Assembly: GCA_903902915.1 (NCBI GenBank)
Contig: CAIUWR010000045.1
Span: forward strand, 186,001 to 250,000
DNA: 64,000 nucleotides
Direction: 5' to 3'
Origin: an uncultured Hyphomicrobiales bacterium
GTDB taxonomy: Bacteria; Pseudomonadota; Alphaproteobacteria; Rhizobiales; Beijerinckiaceae
In this document: positions 54,868-62,766 of the stretch, piece by piece
How positions within the stretch are numbered: position 1 is the stretch's first letter
Layout: the number at the start of each line of letters is the position of its first letter
Notes under the pieces: model-generated
Databases searched by the model: none
What the model saw: only the letters and a program-made list of their open reading frames with translations
What the model was told of the DNA's origin: nothing
Translations under genes and position numbers: made by a program

Positions 54868-55842
54868 ATGAGGGCAGACAGTCAGGATCCCCACCTCTCC
54901 GCCCTCGCCAACGCCGTCGATCTGGACGATCTCCGCCGCCAGCTCGATCCGCTGGACTTCATGGCGGGCTGGAACAAGCAAGAGCCTTCCCTGTGGCGGG
55001 AGCCGCGCACGGATTTCAAACCTGTGGCGTGGCGCTGGGAGGCGGCCAAAGCGGGGCTCGACGCAGCCGGACGGCTGATCGACGCCGAGCAAGCGGAGCG
55101 GCGCAATCTGTTCATGGTGAACCCCATCGCGGGCAACCATTACGCGACCCTGCGCACGCTCGTCGCCGCCTATCAGATGCTGCTGCCGGGCGAGAAGGCG
55201 CGCACCCATCGCCATTCCCCCAACGCCCTGCGCCTCGTGCTCGATGTGGCGGATGATTGCTACACGGTGGTGGACGGCGTGCGCATCGACATGCAGCCGG
55301 GCGACGTATTGCTGACGCCGGGCATGAGCTGGCATGGCCATGGCAACGAGGGCTCGGCGCCCGGCTACTGGATCGACTTTCTCGACGTGCCGCTGGTGCA
55401 GCTGCTGGAGCCCATGTTCCTTGACCTGTGGGAGGGTTTGCAGCCCGTGGCCGACAATACCCGCGAGAGCCCCTATGTCTTCTCCATGGCCTCCATGCAG
55501 GCGCAATTGGCGCAGGCTTCGGCGGATGAGCATGGCCGCATGCGCATCAGGCTCGACGCGCCCTCCATCCCCACCACTGCTCTCTTCATGCAGACGCTGA
55601 CGGGCGGCGAGGCCACGACGCGCCTGCGCTCCACGGAAAACCAGATCTTCGCCGTGGTCAGCGGCGCGGGCGACAGTCAGATTGGCGAGCAAAGCCTGAG
55701 CTGGAGCCGGGGCGACGTGTTCGTGGCGCCGGGCTGGCATGCGGTCCAGCACCGCCCAACGAAGGACGCCCTGCTGTTTTGCGTGTCCGACCTGCCGGTG
55801 CATGAGAAACTGGGCTTCCACCGCTCGCGCGTGGAGGGTTAA
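54868..55842 (+). CDS. Bicupin dioxygenase (gentisate 1,2-dioxygenase-like)
   Basis: PGEKARTHRHSPNALRLVLD, MQPGDVLLTPGMSWHGHGNEG, second cupin RSTENQIFAVVSGAGDSQIG...VFVAPGWHAVQHRP. Confidence 0.85.
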   Translation: MRADSQDPHLSALANAVDLDDLRRQLDPLDFMAGWNKQEPSLWREPRTDFKPVAWRWEAAKAGLDAAGRLIDAEQAERRNLFMVNPIAGNHYATLRTLVAAYQMLLPGEKARTHRHSPNALRLVLDVADDCYTVVDGVRIDMQPGDVLLTPGMSWHGHGNEGSAPGYWIDFLDVPLVQLLEPMFLDLWEGLQPVADNTRESPYVFSMASMQAQLAQASADEHGRMRIRLDAPSIPTTALFMQTLTGGEATTRLRSTENQIFAVVSGAGDSQIGEQSLSWSRGDVFVAPGWHAVQHRPTKDALLFCVSDLPVHEKLGFHRSRVEG

Positions 55843-56378
55843 GCGCCCCCTGCGGGCGCCAGCCGGAACACCCCGCGCCAGCGGATCACCCCCCATGCCA
55901 GCGGATGCGCGCGGCGCCACACCTGCGCCACCTCGTCCACCAGCACGCCGCCGCGCACCTGCGGCGGGGCCGCGAAGACCTCGCCCATGCGCCCCGAAAG
56001 CGACTGATCGGCCAGCACATCCCAGCGCGAATGGCCGCCCATGAGCGGCGAATAGACGCCAAAGACCACCCGCGCCATTCGCGTCTCGCGCACGGCGAAG
56101 GAGCACATGGGACAGGGCTCGACCGTGGTGTAGAGCGTGCAGTCCCGCAACGCGCCCCGGCCCAGCCGACGCTGCGCCTCGCTGATGGCGACCATTTCCG
56201 CATGCCGGGTCACGTCGCCGTCGCGTTTGGTGCGATTGGCGCCGGTGCAGACGACCTCCTCGCCCCGGGCGATGACGCAGGCGAAGGGGAACTCCCCTGC
56301 GCTCACCCCCTCCCACGCGCAGGCGATGCAGCGACGCATCATGCTGTGGTCAAGGTCTTCGCCCAGATCGTCCCGCAT
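55839..56378 (-). CDS. Nucleoside deaminase (CMP/dCMP deaminase family)
   Basis: TRHAEMVAISEAQ (HAE) and TTVEPCPMCSFAVRET (PCxxC). Convergent 4-nt overlap with the cupin gene. Confidence 0.9.
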   Translation of the reverse strand: MRDDLGEDLDHSMMRRCIACAWEGVSAGEFPFACVIARGEEVVCTGANRTKRDGDVTRHAEMVAISEAQRRLGRGALRDCTLYTTVEPCPMCSFAVRETRMARVVFGVYSPLMGGHSRWDVLADQSLSGRMGEVFAAPPQVRGGVLVDEVAQVWRRAHPLAWGVIRWRGVFRLAPAGGA

Positions 56379-56483
56379 CGGCCGCTGCTCCCTATGGCCA
56401 GACTGCGGCGATGAAGCGTAGCTGGCGAAGTCCTGGGACAAGCGTTTTGCAGCGCAGTCGTTCCCGATTCGCGGCGACGAAGA

Positions 56484-56505
56484 GGTCAATTGACCGCAAT
56501 TGCGG
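56484..56505. promoter_or_regulatory. Two overlapping 12-bp perfect palindromes upstream of the Anbu operon
   Basis: GGTCAATTGACC and CCGCAATTGCGG share CC; CAATTG cores 10 bp apart, in the deaminase/ATP-grasp divergent region. Confidence 0.6.
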
Positions 56506-56662
56506 CGCTTGCATCATTTTTATGCAAACCGCGCATTTTCCTGTCCAAGCTCGCGCTGGGGCAAGGCGTCACAGCGGCGGATTATCACAATGCCAGACTG
56601 GTATACGCTTTGCTTGGCGGTTACCATGTTCGCAAGGACAGATCTCCAACAGGAGTGAAGGC

Positions 56663-58099
56663 GTGACGCAGTCGGCGTTTTTTGATGAGATGACTGCCTC
56701 GGGCGGCGACGTCCGCGCCGTCTACGCCCGCATCAGCCGCTGGCTCAACGCATCGCCACCCGAACTCCTCGCCGCCCGCCGCGAACAGGCCGAGCTGATG
56801 TTCCGGCGCATCGGCATCACTTTCGCGGTCTATGGGGACAAGGAGGCGACCGAACGCCTGATCCCCTTCGACATCATCCCCCGCGTGCTCTCCCGCACGG
56901 AATGGAACCGTCTGGAAAAGGGTCTCGTGCAGCGGGTGAAGGCGCTGAACGCCTTCCTCGCGGATCTCTACGGCAAGGGCGAGATACTGAAGGCGGGCGT
57001 CGTTCCCTCCGACATCATCTATCGCAACCCCGCCTTCCGCCCCGAAATGGCCGGACGTCCGGTGCCGCATGACATCTATGTCCATATCGCGGGCATCGAC
57101 ATCGTGCGCGTGGACGCCGATGATTTCTACGTTCTCGAAGACAACGCCCGCACCCCCTCCGGGGTCTCCTACATGCTGGAGAACCGCGAGGTGATGATGC
57201 GCCTGCTGCCGGACCTCTTCGCCAGCTGCGGCGTGGCGCCGGTGGAGAATTATCCCGAACATCTGCGCGCGTCCCTGCGCTCCGTGGCGCCGCTGCGCGC
57301 GGGCGGCGACCCGACCATCGTCGTGCTGACGCCCGGCCAGTTCAATTCGGCTTACTACGAACATTCGTTCCTCGCCGACAAACTCGGCGTCGAGCTGGTG
57401 GAGGGCCGCGACCTGCTGGTGCGCGACGGCTTCGTCTATATGCGCACCACCCAAGGCCCCAAGCGCGTGGATGTCATCTATCGCCGCCTCGACGATGATT
57501 ACCTTGATCCCCTAGCCTTCCGTCCTGACAGCACGCTGGGCGTGCCGGGGCTGATGGGCGCCTATCAGGCGGGCAATGTGACGCTCGCCAACGCGGTCGG
57601 CACCGGCGTCGCGGACGACAAGGCCGTCTACACCTACATGCCCGAAATCATCCGCTTCTATACCGGCGAGGAGCCGCTGCTGAAGAATGTGCCGACCTGG
57701 CGCTGCCGCGAGGCCGATGCGCTGAAATATGTGCTGGAGCATCTGCCCGACCTCGTGGTGAAGGAAGTCAATGGTTCCGGCGGCTACGGCATGCTCGTCG
57801 GCCCGCACGCCACGCGCGCGGAGATCGAGACCTTCGGCAAGAAGCTCGCCGCCGATCCATCCAACTTCATCGCCCAGCCCACCCTGTCGCTCTCCACCTG
57901 CCCCACGTCCTTCAGTGGCGGCGTCGGTCCTCGTCATGTGGATCTGCGTCCCTTCGTGCTCAGCGGCGCGGATGGGGTGCGCGTGGTGCCCGGCGGATTG
58001 ACCCGCGTCGCCTTGAAGGAAGGGTCGCTCGTGGTGAATTCCAGCCAGGGCGGCGGCACCAAGGACACCTGGGTCGTCGACGACCCGCAATTGGCCTGA
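56663..58099 (+). CDS. Circularly permuted type 2 ATP-grasp protein of the Anbu operon
   Basis: GITFAVYGDKEATERLIPFDIIPRVLSRTEWNRLEKGLVQRVKALNAFLADLYG...VVKEVNGSGGYGMLVGPHA; GTG start with AGGAG upstream. Confidence 0.94.
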   Translation: MTQSAFFDEMTASGGDVRAVYARISRWLNASPPELLAARREQAELMFRRIGITFAVYGDKEATERLIPFDIIPRVLSRTEWNRLEKGLVQRVKALNAFLADLYGKGEILKAGVVPSDIIYRNPAFRPEMAGRPVPHDIYVHIAGIDIVRVDADDFYVLEDNARTPSGVSYMLENREVMMRLLPDLFASCGVAPVENYPEHLRASLRSVAPLRAGGDPTIVVLTPGQFNSAYYEHSFLADKLGVELVEGRDLLVRDGFVYMRTTQGPKRVDVIYRRLDDDYLDPLAFRPDSTLGVPGLMGAYQAGNVTLANAVGTGVADDKAVYTYMPEIIRFYTGEEPLLKNVPTWRCREADALKYVLEHLPDLVVKEVNGSGGYGMLVGPHATRAEIETFGKKLAADPSNFIAQPTLSLSTCPTSFSGGVGPRHVDLRPFVLSGADGVRVVPGGLTRVALKEGSLVVNSSQGGGTKDTWVVDDPQLA

Positions 58100-58106
58100 G
58101 AGTCCC

Positions 58107-59063
58107 ATGCTCGCTCGCACCGCCGACAGTCTCTTCTGGTTCGCCCGCTATATGGAGCGCGCCGATTTCGTCGCCCGCATCGTCCATACGACGCGGCGCC
58201 TCGCCTCCTTGCCCTCCCGCGAGAGCAGCGTGGCCAATGAATGGGAAGCCGCCCTTTCGGCGGCGGGCGCCCTCGAAGCCTATCAAGAGGCGCATGAGGA
58301 AGTGGAGGCCAACGCCGCCATTGAATTCCTGCTCTTCGACACGCGCAACACCTCCTCCATCGTCAGCTGCATCGAGAGCGGACGCATCAACGCCCGCGCG
58401 GTGCGCACGGCCCTGACCATCGAAACCTGGCAGACCATCAATGCGGGCTGGCAGGAAATGAAGAAGGTGCAGGCCAAGCATCAGGCCCGCAGCCTCGACA
58501 CCGAAGAGCTGGTGGCCTTTCTTGACCTCGCCATGAAGATCGCGCTGGATGTGGACGGCTCGGCCTATCGCACCATGTTGCGCAACGACGCCTACTGGTT
58601 CTCGCGCCTTGGCCTCTATGTGGAGCGCGCGGACAATACGGCGCGCATTCTGGACGTGAAATACAATATCCTGCTGCCCGAGAGCGAAAGCGTCGGCGGC
58701 TCGCTCGACTATTTCCAGTGGAACGCGATCCTGCGCGCCGTCTCCGCCGTCACCTCCTATCACTGGATCTATCGCGACGGCGTGAAGCCCTGGCTGATCG
58801 CCGATCTGTTGATCCTGCGCCCGGAAATGCCCCGCTCCCTGCTCGCCTGCTATGGCGAGATCGTGCGCTTCCTCGACGCCATCTCCAGCGCCTATGGTCG
58901 CCAGGGCGCCGCCCAGCGCCGCGCCCGCCAAATTCTGGGACGGCTGGAAAACACCACGATGAAAGACGTTTTCGGCGCCGGCCTTCACGAATTCTTGACG
59001 GATTTCATCGAGGACAACAACACGATCGGCGGAGCCATCGCCGAACAATATCTTCTCGACTGA
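58107..59063 (+). CDS. Alpha-E domain-containing protein
   Basis: MLARTADSLFWFARYMERADFVARIVHTTRRLASLP...; 7 nt after the ATP-grasp gene. Confidence 0.94.
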   Translation: MLARTADSLFWFARYMERADFVARIVHTTRRLASLPSRESSVANEWEAALSAAGALEAYQEAHEEVEANAAIEFLLFDTRNTSSIVSCIESGRINARAVRTALTIETWQTINAGWQEMKKVQAKHQARSLDTEELVAFLDLAMKIALDVDGSAYRTMLRNDAYWFSRLGLYVERADNTARILDVKYNILLPESESVGGSLDYFQWNAILRAVSAVTSYHWIYRDGVKPWLIADLLILRPEMPRSLLACYGEIVRFLDAISSAYGRQGAAQRRARQILGRLENTTMKDVFGAGLHEFLTDFIEDNNTIGGAIAEQYLLD

Positions 59064-59070
59064 GGCGGAC

Positions 59071-59886
59071 ATGCGCATCAAGGTCCACCACGAGACCCTG
59101 TTTCATTTTGATACGCCCCAGCGCGCCGTGCTTCAGGCCCTGCGCCTGACCCCGCGCGCCTTCGAGGCCCAGCATGTGGCGGCCTGGCGCATTGACGTGG
59201 ACATGGATTGCCATCTTGCGGCCAGCGAGGACTCCTTCGGCAACATCACCCACGCCTTCACCGCCGAGGGCGCCGTTGAGCATTTCAAGGTTCTGGTGGA
59301 AGGCGAGATCGAGACCATCGACATGGCGGGCGTGGTGCGCGGCGCGCGCGAGCCCTTCCCCGTCGAACTCTATCTGCGCCCGACCGACCTCACCCATGCG
59401 GGCGAGCACGTCGCCGCCTTTGCGCGCAAAGCCATCGGCGCAACAACCGAGCCTCTGGAACGGCTGCACAAGCTGATGCACGTCTGCAACGAGACCGTCG
59501 CCTTCGCGGCGGAGGGCGTGGAACTGAGCGCCAACCAGGCGCTGGCGGGCGGCCAAGGCGACGCGGCGAGCCTCGCCCACCTCTTCATCGCCAGCGCGCG
59601 GTTGATCGGCGCCCCCGCCCGCTGCATCAGCGGCTATTTGTTGCGCGAGGAGCCCGTGGGGCCAGAATCCCTGCACGTCTGGGCTGAAGCCCATGTGGAA
59701 GATCTGGGCTGGGTCGCCTTCGACCCCACCCATGCCGTTTGCCCAACCGACCACCATATTCGCGTGGCCTGCGCGCTGGATCATCTGGGCGCGCGTCCCG
59801 TTCGTAGTTCACATTCGGGCGCAGGCGCGCGCAAGAGCGACGTGCGCGTCGTGAAGGCGCAAGCCCAGCGCCAATGGCAAAGCTGA
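59071..59886 (+). CDS. Transglutaminase-like family protein
   Basis: MRIKVHHETLFHFDTPQRAVLQALRLTPR...GAPARCISGYL...HVWAEAHVEDLGWVAFDPTHAV. 7 nt after the alpha-E gene. Confidence 0.94.
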   Translation: MRIKVHHETLFHFDTPQRAVLQALRLTPRAFEAQHVAAWRIDVDMDCHLAASEDSFGNITHAFTAEGAVEHFKVLVEGEIETIDMAGVVRGAREPFPVELYLRPTDLTHAGEHVAAFARKAIGATTEPLERLHKLMHVCNETVAFAAEGVELSANQALAGGQGDAASLAHLFIASARLIGAPARCISGYLLREEPVGPESLHVWAEAHVEDLGWVAFDPTHAVCPTDHHIRVACALDHLGARPVRSSHSGAGARKSDVRVVKAQAQRQWQS

Positions 59887-59943
59887 TTCAGCGATGATGG
59901 CGACGCTGGCCCGAACTGCGCGCCCATCCGGAGGATATTTGAA

Positions 59944-60696
59944 ATGACCTATTGCTGCGGCGTGCTCGTGCGCGATGGACTTGTCATGATCGCGGACACC
60001 CGCACCAATGCGGGCATCGACAATATTTCGACCTTCCGCAAATTGCATATGTTCAACGAGCCGGACCATCATGTGATGATGATCGCCTCTGCGGGCAATC
60101 TCTCGGCGACGCAAAGCATCCTGCATCTGGTGAGCGAGGGTTTCGAAAATCCCGAGACCAAGGAAAAGGAGCGCATCGCCGGTTGCAAGAGCATGTTTGA
60201 CGCCGCCCAGCTCATTGGCCGCGCCATCCGCCGGGTGCAGACCATCGAAGGCGATGCCTATCAGCAGGGCAGCGTCAAATTCGAAGTGTCTTTCCTGTTC
60301 GGCGGCCAGATCGCGGGCGACCGGATGCGCTTGTTCATGATCTATGCGGCTGGCAATTTCATCGAATGTTCGCAGGACGCGCCCTTCTTCCAGATTGGCG
60401 AATACAAATATGGCAAGCCCGTGCTCGACCGGGCTGTCAATTTCGAGACCAATCTCGACGACGCGCTGAAGGTGGCGCTCGTGTCGATGGATTCCACGAT
60501 GCGCTCGAATCTGGGCGTCGGCCTGCCCATCGACATGGCGACGAGCCGCCGCGATTCGCTGCGCCTTGAGGTGGACGAGCGCATCGACCACACGGAACCC
60601 TATTTCCACGACCTGCGCGACCGTTGGTCCACCGCCCTCAAGCTCGCCTATGCGGGCATTCCGGCCCCGCCCTATGGGAAGAACCGGAAGCGTTGA
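59944..60696 (+). CDS. Proteasome-type protease, Anbu (bacterial proteasome homologue)
   Basis: MTYCCGVLVRDGLVMIADTRTNAGIDNISTFRKLHMF: Thr after Met, Asp17 equivalent, Lys at the proteasome Lys33 position; downstream of ATP-grasp, alpha-E and transglutaminase genes. Confidence 0.95.
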   Translation: MTYCCGVLVRDGLVMIADTRTNAGIDNISTFRKLHMFNEPDHHVMMIASAGNLSATQSILHLVSEGFENPETKEKERIAGCKSMFDAAQLIGRAIRRVQTIEGDAYQQGSVKFEVSFLFGGQIAGDRMRLFMIYAAGNFIECSQDAPFFQIGEYKYGKPVLDRAVNFETNLDDALKVALVSMDSTMRSNLGVGLPIDMATSRRDSLRLEVDERIDHTEPYFHDLRDRWSTALKLAYAGIPAPPYGKNRKR

Positions 60697-60754
60697 GGAG
60701 CGTTTTTCCCGCTCTTGCGCCCCTCTCCAAAGCGGATTAGGTTCCTCCCAGAGC

Positions 60755-62766
<2,012 letters not shown>

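Follow-up and report, generated by a model that had tools for sequence, protein, structure and literature searches.

The window, meaning the whole stretch of 64,000 nucleotides that was analysed, carries an operon whose order, from profile matches, is ATP-grasp, Alpha-E, transglutaminase-like and Anbu. A deaminase gene lies divergently on the other side of the upstream gap. The genes and the elements of the gap, numbered from the first letter of the window, are:

55839–56378, minus strand: divergent cytidine/deoxycytidylate-type deaminase gene (PF00383)
56484–56495: palindrome 1, GGTCAATTGACC, whose left arm the closest species has lost
56491–56507, plus strand: TGACCGCAATTGCGGCG, possibly a second activator site in degenerate form (7.1 bits; the main site follows 19 bp downstream)
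56494–56505: palindrome 2, CCGCAATTGCGG, of which the closest species alone retains the core CGCAATTGCG
56510–56526, plus strand: putative NtrC-type activator site, TGCATCATTTTTATGCA, a 17-bp dyad inside the third repeat (56509–56527)
56599–56614, plus strand: predicted sigma-54 −24/−12 promoter, TGGTATACGCTTTGCT, its pattern recurring in relatives' upstream regions
56663–58099, plus strand: circularly permuted ATP-grasp gene, first of the operon (PF14403, 562.6 bits)
58107–59063, plus strand: Alpha-E gene (PF04168, 291.2 bits)
59071–59886, plus strand: transglutaminase-like gene (PF01841, PF08379)
59944–60696, plus strand: Anbu (proteasome-type) gene (PF00227, 36.1 bits, cut-off 22.4)

The named relatives with an orthologous operon belong to Beijerinckiaceae, Methylocystaceae and other Hyphomicrobiales. 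The deaminase is not kept as a neighbour beyond the closest species (96% identity in the ATP-grasp protein), with 3 weak matches of 34–43% identity among 65 relatives. The conserved elements of the gap therefore most likely serve the Anbu operon, and a promoter region shared with the deaminase was rejected on the same ground. No Rfam match to a structured RNA was found within 55800–60800.

The initial annotation had described tandem overlapping palindromes followed by a third inverted repeat, and had proposed that upstream regions of orthologous operons be aligned. When 92 distinct upstream regions of relatives were compared, a conserved dyad and a sigma-54 element emerged, the latter (56599–56614) absent from that annotation. 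The pattern tested was TGG-N9-TGC with GG and GC 10 bp apart, to which TGGTATACGCTTTGCT conforms. It occurs at most 200 bp from the start in 53 of the 92 regions, whereas shuffles average 2.9 and never exceed 7. The other 39 relatives lack the strict pattern, several of them carrying relaxed versions or a good dyad. Common descent of the relatives means that these counts cannot be read as independent; redundancy was reduced only in part, and metagenome assemblies make up many of the genomes. The genome itself has an rpoN gene (PF04552, E 1.5e-69, L201). Transcription is predicted to start at about 56624–56626.

A symmetric EM search upstream of the sigma-54 elements in the orthologues' regions yielded, de novo, the 17-bp palindrome TGCCTAAAATTTAGGCA, with a log-likelihood of 156 as against 48–65 in shuffles. 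Positions 56510–56526 hold the top score of this motif in the window, 16.7 bits, and are the sole place reaching at least 15 bits. The −24 T of the sigma-54 promoter follows 89 bp downstream of the dyad, whose half-site TTTTTATGCA is kept in the closest species; several lineages among the relatives are without the dyad. Sites of at least 10 bits are found mostly at −54, −65 to −68, −77, −85 to −89, −99, −119 and −131 from the promoter, a phasing with a period of about 10.7 bp. When all sites are used, this phasing was reached by none of 2000 simulations. With each position counted once, which lessens the effect of shared descent, p = 0.009. Such phasing is what an activator that needs to face the polymerase would give.

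The sequence agrees with the description of the three repeats: GGTCAATTGACC and CCGCAATTGCGG are palindromes with CAATTG cores 10 bp apart, and TTGCAT-N7-ATGCAA occupies 56509–56527. Their being unusual holds for the third repeat, as its score in the window indicates, and fails for the palindromes, which occur at chance frequency. There are 40 perfect 12-bp palindromes in the window against 39.1 ± 6.6 in Markov simulations, and one pair at most 20 bp apart where 1.3 are expected; CAATTG is rarer than in shuffles (9 versus 15.2). An excess of palindromes was therefore rejected. In 3.7 Mb, nearly any sequence with at least 12 bases specified would be unique. Both GGTCAATTGACC and CAATTG-N4-CAATTG occur once in the genome, and CCGCAATTGCGG with at most one mismatch occurs at 38 places. 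The proposed genome scan thus made a regulon of neither palindrome visible, and a genome-wide regulon was rejected.

It is accordingly very improbable that a regulator dedicated to the Anbu operon binds the overlapping palindromes as a cooperative dimer-dimer operator. In favour of this idea stands TGACCGCAATTGCG, a 14-bp block over palindrome 2 that is the longest conserved non-coding run against the closest species (permutation p = 0.005). Conservation in related species argues the other way: palindrome 1 is lost even in the closest species, and the pair is found upstream of the orthologous operon in no relative. CAATTG occurs only 13 times upstream of the orthologues (7.9 ± 2.8 expected), and its conservation there was rejected as well. 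Nor did a CAATTG-type motif emerge once the main site was masked, a 12-bp search for a second conserved motif staying at the null level. The left arm of palindrome 1 is lost in the closest species, and more distant relatives do not have the block over palindrome 2. Palindrome 1 is thus most probably incidental, and palindrome 2 belongs at most to a lineage-specific element; the two are mainly incidental. An operator does appear to be present in the region, as had been proposed; it is not the overlapping palindromes, the conserved site being the third repeat, which matches NtrC at a sigma-54 promoter.

Four non-coding blocks of at least 7 bp are common to this genome and the closest species, namely TGACCGCAATTGCG, TTTTTATGCA, CTGGTATA and TTGCTTG, and the last three fall on the activator site and on both promoter elements. 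The identical stretch at 56491–56504 forms the first 14 bp of TGACCGCAATTGCGGCG, and the block may possibly be a degenerate second activator site. Anbu promoters showed no general occurrence of tandem NtrC sites, and the match here is weak. Alternatively, though we regard this as unlikely, a further regulator specific to the lineage might bind TGACCGCAATTGCG, kept in two sister species, and modulate how NtrC and sigma-54 control the Anbu operon. After masking, a 17-bp GC-rich form, CGCCG.a...t.CGGCG, scored 88 versus 35–42 in shuffles; it may reflect second sites in degenerate form, or ordinary palindromes of GC-rich genomic sequence.

A sigma-70 promoter, TTGACC-N16-CATCAT, could also be drawn at 56490–56517 across the palindromes and the dyad, with NtrC repressing it or activating it secondarily. 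The hexamers give one 9/12 match where shuffles give 0.1, yet the −10 is weak, the aligned hexamers in the closest species are no better, and the conserved, phased −24/−12 element is left unexplained. This reading is very improbable.

The protein that would bind the dyad can be approached through other genes carrying the same motif. Both glnK and urtA are classical targets of NtrC. A matrix trained on Anbu operons only reaches at least 12 bits in 28 of 30 relatives' glnK upstream regions, versus 5.8% of shuffles, and most of these regions have a second site. Paired sites occur at glnK and urtA, most of them 24–43 bp apart. The genome's own glnK carries TGCATAAATAATATGCA, with the same arms as the dyad of the window, and its own urtA, a urea transporter gene that has also been described as an NtrC target (PMC7801951), has sites at −131 and −88 from the sigma-54 element. 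Against an NtrC/sigma-54 reading, the best site of the genome's own glnK, at −124, is out of phase with the Anbu set, and the −12 element of that gene departs from TTGC. The dyad motif did not turn up near the PII gene preceding glnA (L116) in a scan that covered the regions upstream of sigma-54-like matches only. The NtrC gene lies in an ntrBC-ntrYX cluster (L213:5979-7463; TIGR01818, 692.7 bits, cut-off 558.6). Its product keeps GAFTGA, which some alphaproteobacterial NtrC proteins are without (PMC10274813).

With the sigma-54 promoter itself real, the dyad might instead be bound by a different enhancer-binding protein, such as NtrX or one not yet characterised. The genome encodes five strong sigma-54 activators, four candidates besides NtrC with NtrX among them, and NtrX adjoins NtrC. 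The sharing of the motif with glnK and urtA and its identity with the published rhizobial NtrC motif (PMC10746234) make such a protein unlikely.

In Sinorhizobium meliloti the NtrC motif was footprinted as TGC-N11-GCA with an A/T-rich centre (PMC10746234). The dyad of the window conforms to it over 17 bp and shares the A/T-rich centre with the nfeR1 site. At nfeR1, NtrC represses a sigma-70 promoter, whereas the dyad here stands upstream of a sigma-54 promoter. The enteric NtrC box TGCACCAnnnTGGTGCA is likewise a 17-bp dyad with TGCA ends (PMC8743547). The inner bases differ, TGCAT...ATGCA being found here as compared with the family consensus TGCCTA...TAGGCA, and the enteric arms are TGCACC where those here are TGCAT.

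That no regulator of Anbu operons had been described, as the initial annotation held, does not stand, since nitrogen/NtrC control of PP_2685-2688 of P. putida is already published (PMC7801951). Nitrogen limitation induces this homologous operon, whose named products include an ATP-grasp protein, a transglutaminase and a proteasome-type protease, and the induction is ascribed to NtrB/NtrC (PMC7801951, PMC8050072). Both PMC6376114 and PMC5666114 cite Hervas 2008/2009 for NtrC control of the P. putida operon. The present operon differs in belonging to an alphaproteobacterium and in being known from sequence alone; the two are likened by genes and regulation. Nitrogen starvation or limitation is mentioned in papers on the structure of Anbu. 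In B. cenocepacia the targets of NtrC/sigma-54 include a cluster with a transglutaminase domain (PMC5491218), and predicted sigma-54 regulons of alpha-, beta- and gamma-proteobacteria are enriched for the COG3484 proteasome-type protease (PMC12316311).

Taken from the sequence, the region is very probably an NtrC/sigma-54 promoter that induces the Anbu operon under nitrogen limitation. Sigma-54 (RpoN) RNA polymerase would be held closed at the −24/−12 element at 56599–56614. Upon nitrogen limitation, phosphorylated NtrC, which we infer to be the protein bound at the dyad, would bind 56510–56526, possibly helped by the degenerate site at 56491–56507. The bound NtrC would then oligomerise, loop to the polymerase and open the promoter by ATP hydrolysis. 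Both the looping and the induction in this organism are likewise presumed.

There is no settled function for the Anbu operon. Its NtrC/sigma-54 control was already known in P. putida, and the present case would extend it to a Beijerinckiaceae group with a defined, phased site. A phased promoter of this kind, conserved across many Beijerinckiaceae-type species, would place the Anbu system in the nitrogen-starvation response of alphaproteobacteria too. Such placement favours nitrogen salvage or protein turnover as the role of the system and names the condition under which Anbu mutants should be tested. A usable NtrC site model is also supplied for the Beijerinckiaceae-type group.

Several other features were observed in the genome and its relatives. 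Of 65 relatives whose downstream sequence is long enough, 40 lack the full ordered four-gene set (loci L036-L115; e.g. L049, L057, L058), and most of these 40 have ATP-grasp, Alpha-E and transglutaminase matches without an adjacent Anbu match at 1e-10. A second ATP-grasp paralogue of about 33% identity is present at G000:C58:88656-90047 and in relatives, where an open frame of about 845 residues in most of them suggests a fusion protein. The −12 element of glnK reads TTTGTT in place of TTTGCT, and so not TTGC (L117:1917-1932), and TGGCAC...TTGTT occurs in 8 of 30 relatives' glnK regions. A very strong NtrC-like dyad, TGCCTATTAAATAGGCA (19.7 bits, L202:740-756, G000:C23), precedes a porin-like open frame (L202:3-488, minus strand) by about 250 bp, with no sigma-54 match seen. 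Another NtrC-like dyad, TGCGTATTTTTTGGGCA (18.6 bits, L205:2401-2417, G000:C40), lies where a lysine/arginine/ornithine-type ABC substrate-binding gene begins. Two divergent sigma-54-like promoters with two or three NtrC-like sites are found at L208:2583-2756 (G000:C86), flanked by genes without an NCBIfam name.
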